Assembly: GCA_020072965.1 (NCBI GenBank)
Contig: JAIQFY010000010.1
Span: 36,018-100,017, forward strand
Source of the DNA: Terriglobia bacterium
Lineage (GTDB): Bacteria; Acidobacteriota; Terriglobia; JAIQFV01
DNA: 64,000 nt
Direction: 5' to 3'
A program made the position numbers and the translations under genes. Each line of letters begins with the position of its first letter. The first letter of the stretch is position 1. Below the pieces are notes generated by a model. That model was not told the DNA's origin and made no database searches. It was given only the letters and a program-made list of their open reading frames with translations. Shown here piece after piece: positions 1-8,153 of this stretch.

Positions 1-1191
1 GCTCTTGACCTCAGTAGCTCTCAGGCCGCTCTTAATTTCCACCCGGGAGCCCGGCACAAGACGGAGCTGGCCGTCAGTGACGACCGACTCGCCGACTTGC
101 AGCCCTTTCTCGATGACGGTGTCGGCATCCAAGGCCGCACCCACCACCACGGGGCGCGACTCGACAGTTCGATCCGGCTTTACAACGAAAACAAACTGTC
201 CTTCCTGGCCCGTTTGGATCGCCCGAGTGGGAACGATTACTGCATTGGGCCTTGCACTCAGGGTCAAGACCACATTGACGAACTGGCCCGGCCACAGGCG
301 ACGGCGCGAGTTGGGAAAGGTCCCCTTGAGGAGGATAGTCCCTGTGTTGCTGTCCACGGTGTTGTTCACAAACGTGAGGACCCCTGGTTCCGGTGATCCC
401 TCATCATTGGGGATGACACCCTTGACCCCCAGCTTTCCCGCTGCCATGTGTTTCTTGATGTCCGGCAAAAACTGCTCCGGGACCGAAAAATCTACATAAA
501 TCGGGGTAACCTGATTGATCACGACCATTGATAGGGTGTCATTGGCCTTGACGACGTTTCCTTGATGAATGAGGAGACTTCCGGTTCGCCCGTCGAGGGG
601 AGAATAAATGGAACAGTAAGAAAGCTGAACCTTGGAGTTTTCAACGGCGGCCTTATCGGCCCGGATGGCCTCCTCCAAGGTGTCATAGCTGCTTTGATAC
701 TGGTCGGCCAGTTGTTTGGGGACTATTCCCTGCTGATATAAATTTGCGTACCGTTGAGCCTGATCTGAAGTGTACTTGACCTGGGCCTGGTCCCGGGCCA
801 GATTGGCCTCCGCCTGGTTCAATGCAGCCGCGTAGGACCGTGAATCAATGGAGAAGAGAAGTTCCCCTTTCTTCACATCCTGACCCTCGACAAAATTGAC
901 CCGCGTGATCTCGCCATTCACCATCGCCTTCACGGCGACCGTGGAAAAAGCCTCACCGGTGCCGATGGCGCGAATCTCAACAGGAACTGTCTTCTGAACC
1001 ACAGCAGCCACCATGACTGGAACGGCACTCCGCATCTGAGGATCCGGCACCTTCCCGGGAGCGCTCTTGCCCGAACAACCGGAAAGCAAAGCAACACTCA
1101 AAAAAACGGAAGCCAGGGACCCAACGACCGGGTTCCAGCGTCTCGCCGAGTTCTTCACCCTAGGATGATTGCAAGGATAATGTTCCTTCAA
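1..1191 (-). CDS. RND efflux periplasmic adaptor (membrane fusion protein), partial
   Basis: This is the membrane-fusion adaptor that would link an inner-membrane RND pump to an outer-membrane channel. The frame is open from 1191 to the window edge (397 codons), so only a few C-terminal residues should be missing. The TTG start at 1191 was chosen because AGGAG lies 7 bases upstream; a GTG at 1158 is the alternative. The N-terminus is a lipoprotein signal ending L-S-G-C (Cys39). After it come the usual adaptor features: a strand ending IRAIGTGE, a lipoyl-type segment (GEITRVNFVEGQDVKKGE), then a coiled-coil hairpin region. It follows the TetR gene on the same strand, which suggests local repression of the pump; the RND pump gene itself would lie outside the window. 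Family assignment is firm, substrate unknown. Confidence 0.88.
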   Translation of the reverse strand, partial: MKEHYPCNHPRVKNSARRWNPVVGSLASVFLSVALLSGCSGKSAPGKVPDPQMRSAVPVMVAAVVQKTVPVEIRAIGTGEAFSTVAVKAMVNGEITRVNFVEGQDVKKGELLFSIDSRSYAAALNQAEANLARDQAQVKYTSDQAQRYANLYQQGIVPKQLADQYQSSYDTLEEAIRADKAAVENSKVQLSYCSIYSPLDGRTGSLLIHQGNVVKANDTLSMVVINQVTPIYVDFSVPEQFLPDIKKHMAAGKLGVKGVIPNDEGSPEPGVLTFVNNTVDSNTGTILLKGTFPNSRRRLWPGQFVNVVLTLSARPNAVIVPTRAIQTGQEGQFVFVVKPDRTVESRPVVVGAALDADTVIEKGLQVGESVVTDGQLRLVPGSRVEIKSGLRATEVKS

Positions 1192-1440
1192 AAGATTTCT
1201 CCTGGTTTAGATTCCCGGGGAACCGCCTTATGACCATGCCGGCTCTCCCCCCACCTAATAATCAACCACTCCTAAAGCGCCAGGCGAGCCCGGTCGCCCT
1301 TCTCGGTCGCAGTACAACTTTAACATCGCCTGATACCCTTCTTCAAATCCTCCGGCAAATTCAGACACGAGGGACGCCCTGCAAAGCGACGGCGTTACGA
1401 GAGACTGCTTTGTAATGACTTGCACCAATGCGGATCCAAT

Positions 1441-2100
1441 TCATCGTCGTTTCGCTCTTCCATCCGGTTTGAGAGGTGCCCCCGCTCGAGCTTGCATTCC
1501 CTGCAACCAAATATCAGTCAAAACGTCGCTCACCTGCTTGCGATCAAATTTCTGATAGTGCTTGCCGCCGAAAAGTTCCTGAATCAAGAAGTGATAGATC
1601 ACCATCCCCAGGAACCCGCGGGCGGCCAGAAGCGGATCCACCCGCCGAAACCTCTTTTCCTGGATGCGCCTGCGAATGTGCGCCGCCAGGGCTTCATAGT
1701 TCTCCGCCACATAGGTCCGGAAGAAGCGGTGTGACAACCGGTGATTTTCCAGGGCCGTAAAGAGGAGGAGCCGACTCAAGGTGGAATCCTCGGTGTTGCG
1801 GCGTAAAATGTCCTCGGCAATTGAGGCAAAGATGACGCGGTCGTTCTCGCTCGAGTGGAGCGCTGCTGCCAGTTTTTCACGCTTCCCAGCCGTCTGACAC
1901 TTGCTATCAATGACAGCCCAGTAGAGGTCCTCCTTGCGTGGAAAATGTCGGAAGATGATGGCTTCATTCACTCCGGCCCGCTCCGCAATCTGCCGCGTGG
2001 TCGTGCCCTCGAACCCCTGGAGTGCAAAAAGGGCCATGGCCACCCGCATGATTTGCTGACGGCGGTCCGCAGAAGCGATCCGACTCGATGTGTGTGCCAT
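1441..2100 (-). CDS. TetR/AcrR family transcriptional regulator
   Basis: A 219-residue repressor of the usual TetR length. Residues about 15-60 form the N-terminal helix-turn-helix (QQIMRVAMALFALQG ... TTTRQIAERAGVNEAIIFRHF), and the rest is the helical ligand-binding half, which is not conserved enough to name a ligand. The ATG is fixed by an in-frame stop five codons upstream. There is no clear Shine-Dalgarno; instead a palindrome directly abuts the ATG (2101-2118), a probable autoregulatory operator. The efflux adaptor begins about 250 bases downstream on the same strand, the standard arrangement for a drug-responsive pump repressor. Confidence 0.92.
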   Translation of the reverse strand: MAHTSSRIASADRRQQIMRVAMALFALQGFEGTTTRQIAERAGVNEAIIFRHFPRKEDLYWAVIDSKCQTAGKREKLAAALHSSENDRVIFASIAEDILRRNTEDSTLSRLLLFTALENHRLSHRFFRTYVAENYEALAAHIRRRIQEKRFRRVDPLLAARGFLGMVIYHFLIQELFGGKHYQKFDRKQVSDVLTDIWLQGMQARAGAPLKPDGRAKRR

Positions 2101-2118
2101 AGTAAGTAATCACTTACT
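2101..2118 (-). promoter_or_regulatory. Palindromic TetR-type operator at the tetR start
   Basis: AGTAAGT and ACTTACT (7-bp perfect arms, 4-bp spacer AATC) end one base before the ATG of the TetR gene. Size and arrangement fit a TetR dimer site. Binding here would cover the ribosome-binding region and any promoter just upstream. The motif and its position are read directly from the sequence; the regulator-site link is inferred. Confidence 0.6.
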
Positions 2119-2362
2119 TTGTACCTGTCGGTGAGGGTTGTCAACGAGAAGTGCGCGAATTCCAAGGAAAGAGAAACATCTCACAAGCTGGGAACGAGAA
2201 GCAGGGCATCCTCTTTCACCAAGGGCTGCGAGGAACAACCGGAAAATTCAGACTTCTCTCCTGGGGGGCCAGGTGAGTGAGATCGGAAAGGCGGTGGGTA
2301 CACGGTCAAGAGGAATCCAATCGTGGAGTCGGGGGGATGTCCTGTCGACATCGCGGGTTTTC

Positions 2363-3013
2363 TTAACTCTTCCGGGGCAATACGTAAAACATCACTGCAA
2401 AATAATGACACGCGCTTCCCGCCAGGACGAAGAGATGCCAGATGGCGTGGTTGTAAGGAATCCTCTTCCAAACATAGAAGAGGATCCCGGCCGTGTAAAT
2501 CAAGCCTCCCAGGACGAGCAGCCGGACTCCGCCCATTGGAATCATCGCCAGCATGGGTTTTATGGCGACAATCGCCATCCATCCCATCAACAAATAAATT
2601 GACACCGAGGTGACCTTGAAGTGATCCACGAAGAAGATCTTGAAGACAATCCCAAAGATCGAGAGCCCCCAGACGATGCCGAACAGGGTCCATCCCCACC
2701 CCCCATGAAGGAGAACCAGGGTAAAGGGGGTGTAGGTCCCGGCGATAAGGAGGTAGATGGAACAATGATCGATGATCTTAAGGGCGTGTTTTATGCGAGG
2801 GGATTGAACGCTGTGATAAAGGGTAGAAGCGGCATAAAGCCCCACGAGCGTGACCCCATAAATTCCGCAACTCAAAATATGCAGCCGGGACCCATGAATA
2901 AACGCCAGCGCCACCAGCACGCTCAACCCTGCCAGGCTTAGTGCCAACCCGATGCCATGCGTCAGAGCGCTGGCAACGTCTTCAGCGGTCAAAGTTCTCA
3001 TCGTCCGCATCAT
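2363..3013 (-). CDS. Hemolysin III / PAQR family membrane protein
   Basis: A 216-residue polytopic inner-membrane protein of the hemolysin III (YqfA/PAQR) family. About seven hydrophobic segments are visible. Family hallmarks are the early ALTHGIGLALSLAG segment, STLYHSV, DHCSIYLLIAGTYTPF, and the late H-x3-H motif in IWHLFVLAGSACHYFAV, whose His residues with the Asp and early His form the presumed metal site of the family. Haemolytic activity is mostly historical; bacterial members are better described as membrane-stress or lipid-related proteins of uncertain function. Two ATGs in a row begin it and a third follows at 3001, so the exact start is uncertain. It lies outside the cassette-like array that begins about 200 bases upstream. 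Confidence 0.9.
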   Translation of the reverse strand: MMRTMRTLTAEDVASALTHGIGLALSLAGLSVLVALAFIHGSRLHILSCGIYGVTLVGLYAASTLYHSVQSPRIKHALKIIDHCSIYLLIAGTYTPFTLVLLHGGWGWTLFGIVWGLSIFGIVFKIFFVDHFKVTSVSIYLLMGWMAIVAIKPMLAMIPMGGVRLLVLGGLIYTAGILFYVWKRIPYNHAIWHLFVLAGSACHYFAVMFYVLPRKS

Positions 3014-3053
3014 GTTCTAAAGATCCCCGTCCCGAAAGCTAGTCTCAGTCAGT

Positions 3054-3091
3054 GCTCCCTTACAAGGGAGCGAGAAACGGAATTCTCCGTT
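3054..3091. repeat. Two adjacent small hairpins upstream of the hemolysin III gene
   Basis: GCTCCCTT/AAGGGAGC with a 2-base loop (3054-3071) is followed at once by AACGGA/TCCGTT with a 4-base loop (3076-3091). They sit 40-80 bases upstream of the 3013 start, so a regulatory role is possible. No T-run follows on either strand, so an intrinsic terminator is unlikely. Confidence 0.4.
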
Positions 3092-3209
3092 CGCTGCATC
3101 CTGATAGGAGAAAAGCGGTCCTGAGGATTCTAATGGAAGCCGGATTGAGATGTAAACCGCAATCTTTGTCGAAGGAGCCGGGGAAATCAATTAGTTCTGC
3201 ACATGGTGT

Positions 3210-3348
3210 GGTCAGACCGGGACATTGGACAAATGGGGATAACTGGAACAATGCCTATCAAATCTGGACACTGTGAAGATGTCACAAATCGGGGCGATGA
3301 ATGCAGCTTGGTCTATGCGATGCTCAATTGTCCAATGTCGGTCTGACC
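3210..3348. repeat. Imperfect inverted repeat bounding about 90 bp, MITE-like
   Basis: The segment at 3210-3234 (GGTCAGACC..GACATTGGACAAAT) recurs in inverted form at 3327-3348, with a 2-base gap and one further extra base. The 92-bp interior holds no ORF. Gene-free region 3014-3361 otherwise contains only the two small hairpins at 3054-3091. The structure could be a small non-autonomous element or a remnant at the distal end of the cassette array. It lacks the AAC...GTT boxes of an attC site. Confidence 0.4.
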
Positions 3349-3361
3349 CTGGTTATTACCG

Positions 3362-3739
3362 CTACCCATACGTTCTGATCTCGAGGAGATGCTTGCTGGG
3401 ATCGTTGAAATATATGGTAGGCGCCATACCCCGCGCACCGGTCTCCTCCCCAGGGCCAGCATTCGATCCGACCGAATCGAACGTAGAACCAAACTCGATC
3501 CCAGCCGATTTGATTCGATTGAAGATCTGTTCGAACTCCTTCCGAGATACGGAAAACGCATAGTGCTCGAATCCGGGTGTCCCCCAAGGAGCGAACTGGA
3601 TCTGAAAATCGGGACTCACTCTCACGACAGTGAAAGGTCCATCCGTACCCTCAACCGCGAATCCCAGAATCGATGAGTAGAACTCAACGCTGGCCTTTAG
3701 ATCGTTGACCTTGATGATGATGTGATCAAGGGTTGGCAT
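3362..3739 (-). CDS. VOC (glyoxalase/bleomycin-resistance fold) protein, cassette gene 5
   Basis: A 125-residue single-domain vicinal-oxygen-chelate protein, the usual length for this fold. The start MPTLDHIIIKVNDLKASVEFYSSILGF and the C-terminal pattern YFNDPSKHLLEIRTYG give the two beta-alpha-beta-beta-beta modules; the early His and late Glu are in metal-ligand positions. Substrate cannot be named. The ATG has a strong AGGAGG 10 bases upstream, which sits right after the R' box of the attC-like site at 3759-3822. This gives the compact layout of an integron cassette: own ribosome site, one gene, attC. It is the last recognisable gene of the array in transcription order. Confidence 0.88.
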   Translation of the reverse strand: MPTLDHIIIKVNDLKASVEFYSSILGFAVEGTDGPFTVVRVSPDFQIQFAPWGTPGFEHYAFSVSRKEFEQIFNRIKSAGIEFGSTFDSVGSNAGPGEETGARGMAPTIYFNDPSKHLLEIRTYG

Positions 3740-3758
3740 GCCTAGACACCTCCTCGTC

Positions 3759-3822
3759 GCCTAAAGTTCAAATTGAGGGGCAGCCCGCTGTTGGGCTGTC
3801 CCGCTCGAATGCAGGGTTAGGC
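3759..3822 (-). other. attC-like recombination site (a)
   Basis: In gene sense it runs from an R'' box GCCTAAC (3822-3816) to an R' box TTTAGGC (3765-3759). The R' differs from consensus GTTRRRY only in its first base. Between them a stem is formed by GACAGCCC and GGGCTG around a small loop. It lies between the stop of the membrane-protein gene (3853) and the start of the VOC gene (3739). The altered G next to the crossover point suggests this copy may be impaired. Confidence 0.6.
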
Positions 3823-3852
3823 GATAGCGCCTCGAATCATGGTTGGAGTGGT

Positions 3853-4482
3853 TCATTTTGGCGCATGTCCACCGCGTCTCAATAGCGGCCATATATTTAG
3901 CAAGAGAGAGACGGCGAATGCGGGTAAGGCTACGGCGAAGTTTCGGATGGCCGTTTCGTTTTGGACAACCAGCGCCTTGATGCGAATCGCCTCTACACCG
4001 TGCCGAATCTCAATATCGGAGCCCGAATTCAAGATGGCATCTATGGGTACTGATGTCACTAAGTAGGCGAAGTATGCAATTGGAGCGATGGCAAGAAAGT
4101 GAATGATGGCGTAGGCGAACAAGCCGAGCGACTCAGCGATCAGTACTGGGGTGCCAAGTAATTGACGAAGCTCCGATGATTTACTGTTTGGATCAAGAGC
4201 CACGCTCATGCTGCCAAAGAGGATTATGAACATAGAGAGGTTTCCCCTGAGGAATATAAGCGGATCCGGTGATGTAAGCTCCCGTTGCAGCCCGTCGAAT
4301 TCCTTGAAGACGCCAGAACTGGACAACAGGCCGAATAGTAATGTGTAGACCGCTACTAGCTTAAGCAGCCCCGCTATCTTGTCTCTCACCGGCAAACGAG
4401 GCCTGATCGCTATGAGCCATAAAACAAAGGCGACCAGCCCCATGTAGAGGACAACAGTGAGAATTGATACTAGAGCCCTCAC
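3853..4482 (-). CDS. Unknown polytopic membrane protein, cassette gene 4
   Basis: A 209-residue protein I do not recognise. Hydrophobic segments lie at about residues 5-25, 40-57, 80-95, 118-145 and 182-198, so a four- or five-pass inner-membrane protein is likely. The middle carries soluble stretches (GVFKEFDGLQRELTSPDP; DPNSKSSELRQLL). It starts with GTG at 4482 behind AGGAGG (4 bases apart), itself just after the R' box GTTAGGC of attC-like site b. Base composition is visibly lower in GC than the flanking chromosomal genes, as is common for cassette genes. Function unknown. Confidence 0.72.
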   Translation of the reverse strand: MRALVSILTVVLYMGLVAFVLWLIAIRPRLPVRDKIAGLLKLVAVYTLLFGLLSSSGVFKEFDGLQRELTSPDPLIFLRGNLSMFIILFGSMSVALDPNSKSSELRQLLGTPVLIAESLGLFAYAIIHFLAIAPIAYFAYLVTSVPIDAILNSGSDIEIRHGVEAIRIKALVVQNETAIRNFAVALPAFAVSLLLNIWPLLRRGGHAPK

Positions 4483-4496
4483 AAGAACCTCCTATC

Positions 4497-4566
4497 GCCT
4501 AACGTTGCGCTTCAGTTTCGTTTTGCCCGCCGCGGGCGAAGCGTAAACAGGAAGCGATGGTTGGGG
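4497..4566 (-). other. attC-like recombination site (b)
   Basis: Gene-sense R'' is CCCCAAC (4566-4560, first base off consensus) and R' is a perfect GTTAGGC (4503-4497). Inner arms CATCGCTTC and GAAGCG pair, and the tip is a GCCCGC/GCGGGC stem. The site starts 2 bases after the stop codon at 4569 and ends 14 bases before the next gene's GTG, a spacing typical of cassette junctions. Confidence 0.7.
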
Positions 4567-4568
4567 TA

Positions 4569-5156
4569 CTACTTCTTCCTCTTTTTGAGCAACTTGTTTG
4601 CCTCATCGACAGTAAGTTCTTTGAATTCAAGCTTCGAATAGATGGCCTTTTTGGATTTTCTGTTGTCGTTGCAGAGAACACCTAGCTTGAGAGTGCCGCC
4701 CCACGAGTAGTATGAACCCCGTTTGCTTTTCCCGACCCAGTAGGCAGCCTTGTCTCCAGATACAACCAAGTACAGCTCGTATGACTTGCCATCTTGAGGA
4801 AAGAGAGTGGATAGTTGGAATCCACCCGCGAAACCAAAGCCCAATTCCCTGATATTCCAAGGGGTCACAATCACGGTCATAGAAAATGCCTGTTTCCTTG
4901 GAAGGACTTCTTTAAAAGTGGCATATCCTCTTATCTGAGGCAACACCTCTGTGAATACCAGTGTGTTGTATGTTGCGCTCCAAGAATCTTCGGGCACAAA
5001 CGAGAATCTGGATATATTCTCGACGCTCAGGAAATCGATCGTTTCGGGTTGACCCTGTTGTCCCTGGGATGGGCCCGACTTCTGAAGCGTCTGAGAGAAC
5101 GTCGACGACGAGATGCTGATCAGCAGGACCACGGCAAGAATCTTCACCCTATTCAT
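4569..5156 (-). CDS. Unknown exported protein, cassette gene 3
   Basis: A 195-residue protein of unknown function. The start at 5156 (MNRVKILAVVLLISISSSTFSQ) was chosen because it gives a clean Sec signal peptide and has AAGGAGG 7 bases upstream; an ATG-like extension to 5222 would run through the attC-like site. The mature part is a mixed polar domain containing SWSATYNTLVFTEVLP, two GFGFAGG/YYSWGG-like aromatic-glycine stretches and a very basic tail (KLLKKRKK). It is probably periplasmic. GC is lower than in neighbouring chromosomal genes. Its stop nearly touches attC-like site b. Confidence 0.7.
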   Translation of the reverse strand: MNRVKILAVVLLISISSSTFSQTLQKSGPSQGQQGQPETIDFLSVENISRFSFVPEDSWSATYNTLVFTEVLPQIRGYATFKEVLPRKQAFSMTVIVTPWNIRELGFGFAGGFQLSTLFPQDGKSYELYLVVSGDKAAYWVGKSKRGSYYSWGGTLKLGVLCNDNRKSKKAIYSKLEFKELTVDEANKLLKKRKK

Positions 5157-5173
5157 TCTTCGCCTCCTTATCT

Positions 5174-5230
5174 GCCCAACACCGGGGATAAGCTGCGTGG
5201 CGACGTTGTACCGCGGGCGCAACGTTGATT
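5174..5230 (-). other. attC-like recombination site (c)
   Basis: Gene-sense R'' is AATCAAC (5230-5224, one mismatch to RYYYAAC) and R' is GTTGGGC (5180-5174, perfect GTTRRRY). The R'-proximal 20 or so bases are identical to those of site d apart from the variable box positions, as expected for attC sites of one lineage. It separates VOC gene 2 from cassette gene 3. Confidence 0.65.
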
Positions 5231-5318
5231 AACTTTCTGATTTCTATCGCTGACGTATGTTGTCTTTAGATTTCACAACTTCGGATTCAATAATTGCGGC
5301 CGTGACGAACCAGCCCGC

Positions 5319-5705
5319 TCATTGGCCTTGAGGCGGCTGCCATAGCTCGACCTTGTTTCCCTCTGGATCCATGACCCAGGCAAACTTCCCATACTCGGAA
5401 TCGTCAATCTTCTCGAGCACATTGCAGCCTTCTTCCTTCAAGACCTTGACCAAGGCGTGGAGGTCTTCCACTCGGTAGTTGACCATGAAGGAAGCAGAGC
5501 TCGGAGCAAAGTGATTACTTTCCTGCGGATCGATTAACCAGGCAGTTGTACCTGCAACCGGCTTGCCCTCGGCGTCGGTCCAATCGAAGGCAGCTCCGCC
5601 CCAGACTTGGACATCGATTCCCAAGTGCCGCTTGTACCAAGCCTGCAGTGATGGAGCGTCTTTGGCCTTGAAGAAGATGCCGCCGATGCCAGTGACTCGT
5701 TTCAT
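5319..5705 (-). CDS. VOC/glyoxalase-like protein, cassette gene 2
   Basis: A 128-residue vicinal-oxygen-chelate domain protein. The N-terminus (KRVTGIGGIFFKAKDAPSLQAWYKRHLGI) and the C-terminal YGKFAWVMDPEGNKVELWQPP are typical of the glyoxalase / bleomycin-resistance superfamily, including the late Glu in the metal-ligand position. Substrate is unknown; small VOC proteins are frequent cargo of integron cassettes. TAGGAGG precedes the ATG by 5 bases. About 45 bases separate the start from the R' box of attC-like site d. Confidence 0.9.
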   Translation of the reverse strand: MKRVTGIGGIFFKAKDAPSLQAWYKRHLGIDVQVWGGAAFDWTDAEGKPVAGTTAWLIDPQESNHFAPSSASFMVNYRVEDLHALVKVLKEEGCNVLEKIDDSEYGKFAWVMDPEGNKVELWQPPQGQ

Positions 5706-5751
5706 GTGACCTCCTATGTGGGATGATAGTGAGAGAAATATTTCTTCTGCG

Positions 5752-5817
5752 ACCTAACACCGGGGATAAGCTGCGAAGCGGTGTCCGCGTCCGAACGCGA
5801 CGGCGCGGGCATGAGGC
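5752..5817 (-). other. attC-like recombination site (d), degenerate R''
   Basis: The R' box GTTAGGT (5758-5752) is perfect and the adjoining arm matches site c. The tip is a GTCGCG/CGCGGAC stem. The distal box reads GCCTCAT (5817-5811), only five of seven consensus positions, so this end is degenerate. It lies 45 bases after the stop of the DUF5655-type gene. Confidence 0.55.
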
Positions 5818-5862
5818 GGCATGTCCATCCTGGCAACCATGCCGCCGAAAGCTTCGTCAGCT

Positions 5863-6318
5863 TCATCCCCTTGTTCGACGGAATCTGGATTGCTCCACCA
5901 GCCCTGCCGTCCGTTCGCCCATGGCGAGGTCGAAAGCTTCACGCAGAAAGGGCATGACGGCGCGCAGGTCCTCTGTGGTTCGGACAAAGGCGACGTGTGA
6001 GACGCGCTTGCCGCTTGGTCCGCTCTTCACGAAGTGCGGTGCGCTCACCTTGCGACCGAGGTGGACCACCACCCGAAGCGCATCCCGCATTACTGTCAGG
6101 TCCGCGAAGATGCGGGTCGTCCGGAATAGCGCATACCGGTCACGCGTGACCACCTCCACATCGCCGAAGCTCCTGACCGTGGTCTCGAGTTTCCGGTAGA
6201 GATCGGCAAGTGCCGGTGGCCTGCCTTTGAGCAGGGTCGTGGCGCTGCCGACCCCGCACGCATGACGTTGGTGTGACCGACGAAACGCCCGACTACACCG
6301 GGGACATGCCCAAGTCAT
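5863..6318 (-). CDS. DUF5655-type protein with N-terminal zinc-ribbon-like motif, cassette gene 1
   Basis: A 151-residue protein. Residues 1-20 contain W-x-C-P-x-C-x-R-x-F...H-x-C, a small zinc-binding-like motif, followed by a domain of the DUF5655 type (DLYRKLETTVRSFGDVEV ... FADLTVMRDALRVVVHLGRKV). This domain is common in cassettes and mobile regions and has no established activity. AGAAGGACG lies just upstream of the ATG. The ATG overlaps the stop of a 27-codon ORF by ATGA, so translation may be coupled. It is the first gene after the large attC-like site e. Confidence 0.8.
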   Translation of the reverse strand: MTWACPRCSRAFRRSHQRHACGVGSATTLLKGRPPALADLYRKLETTVRSFGDVEVVTRDRYALFRTTRIFADLTVMRDALRVVVHLGRKVSAPHFVKSGPSGKRVSHVAFVRTTEDLRAVMPFLREAFDLAMGERTAGLVEQSRFRRTRG

Positions 6319-6398
6319 AACGTCCTTCTACACGGCGTTGCCGCGAGGATCTTCAACTCCACTTCTTCCCGTCGAACATTGAATGGATTGATCCGCAT
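6315..6398 (-). CDS. Short ORF overlapping the DUF5655-type gene start
   Basis: A 27-codon frame (MRINPFNVRREEVELKILAA...) between attC-like site e and the DUF5655-type gene. Its TGA overlaps the next ATG by 4 bases, and GCAGGAT precedes it with poor spacing. It may be a leader peptide, a cassette gene remnant or chance. Only position and overlap support it. Confidence 0.25.
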   Translation of the reverse strand: MRINPFNVRREEVELKILAATPCRRTL

Positions 6399-6425
6399 AT
6401 CCTGCGGAAAATTGGTATTCGATCC

Positions 6426-6522
6426 GCCTAACACGCCGATGATTCGGCGAATACTACTGCGATAAGCTTTTCAACATCGCGCACTTGCGACCCTTGTTGC
6501 TTTTTATCGTGGCGTGTTAGGC
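6426..6522 (-). other. Large attC-like recombination site (e)
   Basis: Gene-sense R'' is GCCTAAC (6522-6516) and R' is GTTAGGC (6432-6426), both perfect consensus. The outer arms extend to a 19-bp perfect inverted repeat (6419-6437 with 6511-6529). At 97 bp it is longer than the other four sites, approaching the size of Vibrio-type repeats. It lies between the DUF4173 gene and the DUF5655-type gene; the rest of the gene-free stretch 6319-6637 shows only the short ORF at 6315-6398. No attI or integrase gene is seen on either side. Confidence 0.72.
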
Positions 6523-6637
6523 GGATCGATATAACATCCTGTTGCTCCATTTCATAGCTAATCGAACAGGTCGCATACTCCCTATGTTAGGGCCGGTCTC
6601 AAAAAAAGGACAAGTTGAATTTTAAAATATGGTCGGG

Positions 6638-8104
6638 TCAGATCAGGATGGCTTGGTTTCGGCGGACCGCCTCCATGGCCCTGGATCGGGCCCAACTCCA
6701 CGTCCGCCAGTCCATGCGTTCTTGTGGCGACCATCGCTTGAGGATCCGTGAAGCAAGGAGGGCGCGATGCTCCGCGCTCAACTTCGGAATGGCTCTGATC
6801 ATCTCTGGTACGGCGTCCGCACTCAAGGAAGCGACATATCCGGCATCGAGCGGGTGTCCTGTGTTTTCACGGGACAAGTTGACTCGAGCGATGAATTGAT
6901 CCGGATTCACAATGTGGAGAGTGAAAACGAGCAGGAAACCGGCCATCATGGCGCCAAAGGCGAAGTGCTCCCGCCGGCCACGGAGCACCGTGACTGAAAA
7001 CCAGAGAAACACCACTGCCAGCCACGCCATGAATGTAGTCGTATAGAAGCGTTGTTCCGTTAGACCATATTCTTGTTGATACAAAACCATGCGCTCAAGT
7101 GCAGAAATCATAATGACGAACACAAGGGCCAACTGGAACCCCGCCAGCCATCCAAACACTCGCCGCTGTGATGGCTGCTCCTTGGGCATGAGCCAATGGC
7201 ACGCAAGAAGCAATGGAAGGACTAGTGCCGCCACCGCCACCAGTTCAAAAAACCCCCTGCGCGCGTACTCCGCATAAGTCAGCCCCGGAGAAACCTGTAT
7301 CCACTGCGCACCACCAAATAGGTAGCGAACCTGGACCAGGACGAAGGACAAGAAGAGAACATTCAAAGACGTCAGGACAATGCCGATTTCAATGATTCCC
7401 AGGGAGAAGGTCGGTGTATGCCAATCTTTGACGGTATGGATTTCTGTTCCAAAGATCAGCCCCCTCAAGAAACCGCCGGCCAGCCAGGCAAACAGTACCA
7501 CCATAAAAAGGTGCGAAAAGACGCTCTCGACGTTTATGTGGAAAATATCCTTTATAAAATGGCTGAAGATGGCGTCGGCCCCCGTCAAAAGTCCACCGAA
7601 CAGCAGCAGCAGGGGGAGCGCAATGAGAACACCTTTCACCACGGCAATTTTATGCTGTGAACCTCGATCCTTGACCGCATCCCGCCAGGAGATATCGCTG
7701 GAGAGGAGCGCCAATGAGCCAAAAGCCGCGTTCAGCCCGACGAGGACGGATCCCAGACCATACTCGGCCAAACTGGAGCGAAGGACCGTTCCGCCCTGGG
7801 CACGGAGCATCAAGAGCGAAAGGACAACCAGCAATGAGAAGATATCGAGCAGCTTCAGGGTGAGCGCATCGCGCCAAGCAACCCCGAATGAAAAAAGAAC
7901 CCCGCTTAAGAGCAGCCAGTGGCAGTTCCGGGCAAAGGCGTCATCGCGCCATCGCCGGGCGGCAAGAACTACGGCGCAGCCCGCCAATATCCAGAGGGGA
8001 AAGTTGAGTCCCCACGGGGTCGGGCGTAAGAGGACGTCGGCCCACAATCCCACCGTCAACGCGAAGGCAATCAATTTCAGTCCTCTGGGGGTTTTTTGAT
8101 CCAT
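6638..8104 (-). CDS. DUF4173 family polytopic membrane protein
   Basis: The start at 8104 (MDQKTPRGLKLIAF) was chosen for GAGGAG 7 bases upstream, giving 488 residues; an upstream extension to 8296 would overlap the neighbouring gene and lacks support. About ten to twelve hydrophobic segments are visible. The signature stretch LTYAEYARRGFFELVAVAAL near the middle, after FVLVQVRYLFGG, places it in the DUF4173 family. The C-terminal cytoplasmic part (AELSA-like helices, KRWSPQERMDWRTW) is soluble. Function of the family is unknown. It follows the unknown membrane protein gene by 49 bases on the same strand, so the two are probably co-transcribed. Confidence 0.85.
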   Translation of the reverse strand: MDQKTPRGLKLIAFALTVGLWADVLLRPTPWGLNFPLWILAGCAVVLAARRWRDDAFARNCHWLLLSGVLFSFGVAWRDALTLKLLDIFSLLVVLSLLMLRAQGGTVLRSSLAEYGLGSVLVGLNAAFGSLALLSSDISWRDAVKDRGSQHKIAVVKGVLIALPLLLLFGGLLTGADAIFSHFIKDIFHINVESVFSHLFMVVLFAWLAGGFLRGLIFGTEIHTVKDWHTPTFSLGIIEIGIVLTSLNVLFLSFVLVQVRYLFGGAQWIQVSPGLTYAEYARRGFFELVAVAALVLPLLLACHWLMPKEQPSQRRVFGWLAGFQLALVFVIMISALERMVLYQQEYGLTEQRFYTTTFMAWLAVVFLWFSVTVLRGRREHFAFGAMMAGFLLVFTLHIVNPDQFIARVNLSRENTGHPLDAGYVASLSADAVPEMIRAIPKLSAEHRALLASRILKRWSPQERMDWRTWSWARSRAMEAVRRNQAILI

Positions 8105-8153
8105 CGCCATTCTCCTCGAACATGAGTGAAAGAGACTGCTTTCCGCTTCGGTT

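Follow-up and report, generated by a model that had tools for sequence, protein, structure and literature searches.

How did five genes on one strand, set apart by palindromic elements and accompanied by no integron integrase gene (intI), come to stand together in an acidobacterial genome? The original prediction, made from the letters of the window (the whole stretch of 64,000 nucleotides that was analysed), described the locus as five cassettes with five attC-like sites and no integrase, that is a CALIN. Operationally, a CALIN consists of at least two attC sites with no integrase nearby (Cury et al., as cited in PMC8618304). The array is a CALIN under this definition, the count of five attC sites has to be reduced to three (a, b and d), and the block is very probably a decayed chromosomal integron that lost its intI. 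Three routes to CALINs have been published, of which loss of intI is one (PMC8618304), and Acidobacteriota are already among the phyla listed with integrons (PMC8618304; PMC8352920).

The inserted block and its cassettes

The array lies on contig C100 of a 5.9-Mb assembly in 108 contigs (G000). The phylum, Acidobacteriota, follows from G153, a genome of the same phylum, one contig of which is identical over 3,665 bp to a contig of an Acidobacteria MAG. Comparison by blastn with a sister species of the same genus (G297) delimits a 3.5-kb insertion, window 3159-6643, that is missing at the equivalent place in the relative: window 1-3158 corresponds to L161 7027-10182 and window 6644-8124 to L161 10242-11722. 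In the sister species the genes on either side of the block adjoin each other, and the gap between the matching stretches is about 60 bp. The block holds five minus-strand cassettes and no integrase gene. Reading of the sequence confirmed the predicted five minus-strand genes with AGGAGG-type ribosome-binding sites, the boxes are present where they had been placed, and the lack of an integrase gene in the window was borne out by a whole-genome search with TIGR02249, which gave no match on C100. The features are as follows.

3159-6643, no strand assigned: whole inserted block, delimited by blastn against the sister species
3210-3348, no strand assigned: MITE-like short inverted-repeat element of about 140 bp, beyond the last gene and within the inserted block
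3362-3739, minus: cassette 5, VOC gene (PF00903, E 7e-10), own attC missing
3759-3822, minus: attC a, near-consensus (covariance model 31 bits, E 4.7e-5)
3765-4502, minus: cassette 4, unknown membrane protein (3853-4482) with attC a
4497-4566, minus: attC b (15.2 bits by covariance model, 16.2 by profile)
4503-5179, minus: cassette 3, unknown exported protein (4569-5156) with attC b
5174-5211, minus: half attC c, L'-R' arm only, from comparison with G297:C50
5180-5757, minus: cassette 2, VOC (glyoxalase-like) gene (5319-5705; PF00903) with damaged attC c
5752-5879, minus: attC d of 128 nt, in which the variable loop is long and L'' has two extrahelical bases (16.8 bits by profile)
5758-6376, minus: cassette 1, DUF5655 gene (5863-6318; PF18899, E 2e-13) with attC d
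6371-6567, minus: attI-like site, with copies beside intI 3' ends in G000, G297 and G305
6552-6582, minus: trace of an intI 3' end, reading G-V-x-x-x-F-D-x-L-stop

In the free form of a cassette, its own first bases make up the box with which R'' pairs. Cassette 1, which begins TTCGAC, has the start box GTTCGAC, pairing at 7/7 positions with its own R'' box GTCGAAC; the start GTTAGGC of cassette 4 pairs at 7/7 with its own R'' GCCTAAC, and the start box of cassette 3 at 6/7. In all three, pairing with the own R'' box is better than with the R' box that now follows.

Searches with the DUF5655 and VOC cargo revealed no strong special function: the DUF5655 protein has a weak match to the PADLOC candidate defence model PDC-S18 (E 1.6e-7), and the last VOC gene obtains weak Fos-like scores far under the cut-off. 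The small inverted-repeat element, with termini GGTCAGACC...GGTCTGACC, has several dispersed copies in the host genome and the sister species; since it is dispersed alone, its role as the end of a mobile unit is unsupported. Between the left border of the block at 3159 and position 3361, the covariance model and the combined score revealed no attC site.

The attC sites and the movement of cassettes

Are the elements between the genes true attC sites? A covariance model was trained on 42 sites, which stem from integrase-bearing contigs of other organisms and from plasmid class 1 integron cassettes; none came from the host genome, which avoids circularity. Two sites of the window were found by this model, a with 31 bits (E 4.7e-5) and b with 15.2 bits. 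The original prediction had named a covariance search that recognises none of the sites as what would speak against it, and this did not occur. The weakness of site b by the covariance model alone counts against the decayed-integron reading, as does the failure of the same model to find site d, probably owing to its long loop. After this miss a two-arm profile that ignores loop length was adopted. In the gene orientation it gives 44.7 bits for a, 16.2 for b and 16.8 for d, and in the opposite orientation 9.2, 3.1 and -4.1 bits, respectively. This strand bias agrees with the orientation of the genes and thus argues for a cassette array; DNA folding also makes the bottom strand the stabler one for a, b and d. 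All three sites pass the combined score cut-off of 22; real sequence free of integrons (142 kb) and shuffled sequence (192 kb) yielded no site that did so. They carry R''/R' and L''/L' arms and, like known attC sites, extrahelical bases on the L'' arm, where two such sites suffice for a CALIN. A simple strict box scan was dropped as it missed most known attC sites, and a search of Rfam gave no matching family at either threshold.

The sites differ in their state of preservation. The R' box of site a, TTTAGGC, has one substitution, located at the crossover base, and the arms of this site are near-identical to those of an IntI-linked site in a proteobacterial MAG (L095 4030-4093). Site d had been placed at 5752-5817, which proved too short: its R'' box GTCGAAC lies at 5873-5879, within the 3' end of the DUF5655 gene. 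Its arm score is 13.4, and a shorter attC at C64:16706-16777 in the same genome repeats both arms, with 31/31 and 32/35 identical positions. Site c, predicted as a full attC, consists of the L'-R' half. Judged against the copy of this VOC cassette at G297:C50, where the R''-L'' arm is retained, some 51 bp that contain this arm were deleted here near 5296-5302, between CGGCCGC repeats. Comparison of the arms upheld the observation that sites c and d have the R'-side arm in common. Taken literally, the statement that four of the five R' boxes are perfect is correct, but one of the four is the box of the fifth site (e), which is not an attC site (see below).

Single cassettes of the window are found in relatives, where they have moved as units with breakpoints at the attC core. 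In the sister species, cassette 3 occurs on C38, with homology covering window 4504-5174, the ends of which are attC crossover points. Cassette 2 occurs on C46 and on C50, in both cases cut by the contig end; in the C46 copy the R' box of site d marks the beginning of homology. Both cassettes have other neighbours there than in the window, and the attC-bounded ends of homology coincide with the crossovers. The other outcome named as speaking against the prediction, related genomes with all five genes in fixed order and no palindromes between them, is not what G297 shows: it lacks the block and has two of the cassettes elsewhere. The VOC gene of cassette 2 is also present in a different genus (G298). 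Its synonymous divergence (dS) is 0.05 against G297:C50 (127 codons) and 0.13 against G298; the value of 0.03 against G297:C46 comes from 43 codons only, as the contig ends there, and has to be read with this caveat. Four neighbouring chromosomal genes have dS values of 0.32-0.66 between the host genome and G297. Since the divergence of cassette 2 is far below that of these four genes, it changed genome or array later than the separation of the species, and its near identity to the sister-species copies shows that cassettes were still being moved in recent times.

The attI-like site and the origin of the array

What stands at the head of the array? The original prediction placed a fifth attC site, e, at 6426-6522. 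This assignment was rejected: the profile gives 0.3 bits, a 19-bp perfect palindrome (6419-6437/6511-6529) takes the place of two spaced arms, and the element recurs in the genome within a longer repeat of some 200 bp. This repeat, at 6371-6567, has the properties of an attI-like site by its position and breakpoint. About ten copies were found in three genomes: in the host on C64 (three full and one part), C15, C104 and C100, in the sister species on C46 and C1, and on two contigs of G305, a genome from another family of the same class. Most copies adjoin the 3' end of an intact or decayed intI. In the C64 copies the intI ends read THLLIRGPAGVRSPFDGL, SYVLNRGPAGVRRPFDKL and similar; the C15 copy and both G297 copies retain a longer intI relic, and at G305:C698 an open frame of 250 aa is preserved, with 65% identity to the host's own IntI over the final 119 aligned residues. 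In the window the trace of intI at 6552-6582 is recognised through alignment with those copies in C64, C15, G297 and G305 in which the C-terminus of IntI is still encoded. In all full copies homology stops at the AATG/TT crossover, where an ATGTT or TTGTT core is followed by a differing R' box and cassette; in the window the core box GTTCGAC occupies 6371-6377 and crossover falls between 6377 (G) and 6376 (T). A recurring position beside intI together with a common breakpoint is what is expected of attI, where the first cassette joins, and this points to the window array as an integron that lost its intI.

Two further findings count against this reading. The window trace comprises only about 30 bp, seen through the aligned copies, and is all that is left of a functional intI; and among the copies found none adjoins a full-length intact intI of its own lineage, the best being the 250-aa frame of G305:C698. 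The sequence that replaces intI upstream of the attI-like site is common to window 6590-6623 and C104:10889-11118, from which it follows that the truncated form is older than the split of these two copies.

How could the present arrangement have arisen? Very probably, an integron platform stood at this place with intI reading toward attI, and IntI added cassettes singly at attI, resulting in the order attI, DUF5655, VOC, exported protein, membrane protein, VOC. Subsequently, intI was lost save some 30 bp of its 3' end, attC c lost one arm through the deletion between the short repeats, and the last cassette its attC, perhaps when the small inverted-repeat element settled beside it. Alternatively, or in addition, since the two are compatible, an integron already without intI could have been duplicated in one piece inside the genome, inverted-repeat elements on its flanks included, as a small transposable or duplicated unit. 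Such an event would fit the non-intI stretch that the window and C104 have in common upstream of the trace, the same inverted-repeat element beyond the array in both, and the empty site in the sister species; it is nevertheless unlikely, as the element is dispersed alone in both genomes, the contents of the two arrays differ, and neither a transposase nor a target-site duplication was identified. More improbable by far is a true orphan CALIN, created by off-target insertion by an IntI encoded elsewhere at a place where no platform ever stood. Off-target insertion is a published route to CALINs (PMC8618304) and an intact IntI is encoded on another contig, but what heads the array is an attI-like site with an intI trace and not an attC beside chromosomal sequence. 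With three well-formed attC sites, one half site and a fifth inside an attI-like element beside the remnant of intI, the block is better described as a decayed integron than as a mere group of attC sites. An ordinary operon-like run of genes with palindromic terminators between them, as the common strand and the own ribosome-binding sites of most genes might suggest, can be dismissed in view of the attC profile scores with their strand bias, the empty place in the sister species, and the single genes found elsewhere with attC-core breakpoints, which refute it.

Compared with the CALINs of Cury et al. (as cited in PMC8618304), the decayed integron of the window is alike in having at least two attC sites, single-gene cassettes in the same orientation and no nearby intI; it differs from that description in being headed by an attI-like site and an intI trace, so that origin by intI loss is directly readable. 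In Xanthomonas, chromosomal integrons likewise keep their arrays after truncation or loss of intI, with extra arrays elsewhere on the chromosome (PMC12444791), whereas the present host belongs to another phylum and keeps one intact integron and several attI copies of a second lineage. In Treponema, intI is also transcribed toward attI and the cassettes, and integron loss leaves attC remnants (PMC3607928); here, in Acidobacteriota, several dispersed arrays occur per genome. The window array thus adds to a known kind of element, one in which the origin of an orphan array is clearly visible.

Other arrays of the host genome

Could an integrase encoded elsewhere still act on the window array? The search for IntI outside the window that had been proposed with the original prediction found an intact IntI on C34 (TIGR02249, 459 bits in the whole-genome search; 54% identical to IntI1), so the genome is not integrase-less. 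Beyond this intI lie at least eight attC sites, after which the contig ends. The sister species has an intI at the same place, with 91% protein identity. The C34 integron, a sedentary chromosomal integron of this genus, pairs IntI with an attC array in the same genome as the window array; it differs from the latter in that its attC sites form a largely uniform family of 68-75 nt and its attI is of a different type. Across the phylum, TIGR02249 matches above the cut-off were obtained in 87 of 297 genomes drawn from Acidobacteriota. Further arrays or attC sites lie on C12, C15, C30, C37, C64, C70, C89, C90 and C104 (about ten arrays), with broken or relic intI on C70, C89 and C15. The intI relics of C15 and G297:C46 have in common a stop at the catalytic tyrosine codon, and a frame-breaking deletion is common to all three long intI relics.

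The VOC cassette at G297:C46 (dS 0.03-0.05 between the species) sits behind such a dead intI relic and probably arrived there after its integrase had died, a hint that arrays with dead intI still received cassettes. On this ground it may tentatively be proposed that the genus has a distributed integron, in which one intact IntI serves about ten dispersed arrays in trans, including those with attI and dead intI. The attI-like site and attC a, b and d of the window are putative functional substrates, and the C34 IntI may still be able to move the window cassettes in trans. Alternatively, the gain of cassettes may be explained by homologous recombination between arrays and not by an integrase acting in trans.

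The case is less usual in how many arrays and attI-like copies a single genome carries and in this hint of cassette gain with a dead intI. Arguments on how CALINs arise are mostly based on counts; in the present case a single genome displays the steps next to one another, with an intact integron, intI relics of several lengths, attI-like arrays without intI, and cassettes that differ between sister species. Two questions can now be put to the test: whether an integrase encoded elsewhere keeps arrays active that have none of their own, and in what way integron platforms increase in number within one chromosome, as the C64 copies invite one to ask. These copies (G000:C64:1448-24668; L153, L154) comprise an attI-like site with an intI tail, repeated three times in full and once in part in the same direction over 23 kb, and each full copy precedes its own short cassette array. 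Of the broken genes, C70:46485-47065 encodes an IntI without an internal stretch and C89:86974-87149 is a 3' relic, with attC sites beside each. The complete chromosomal integron on C34 spans G000:C34:61121-69439 (L009 11122-19440) with its array running off the contig end, and its first cassette resembles, by eye, a toxin-antitoxin pair of the Phd/YefM-YoeB type.
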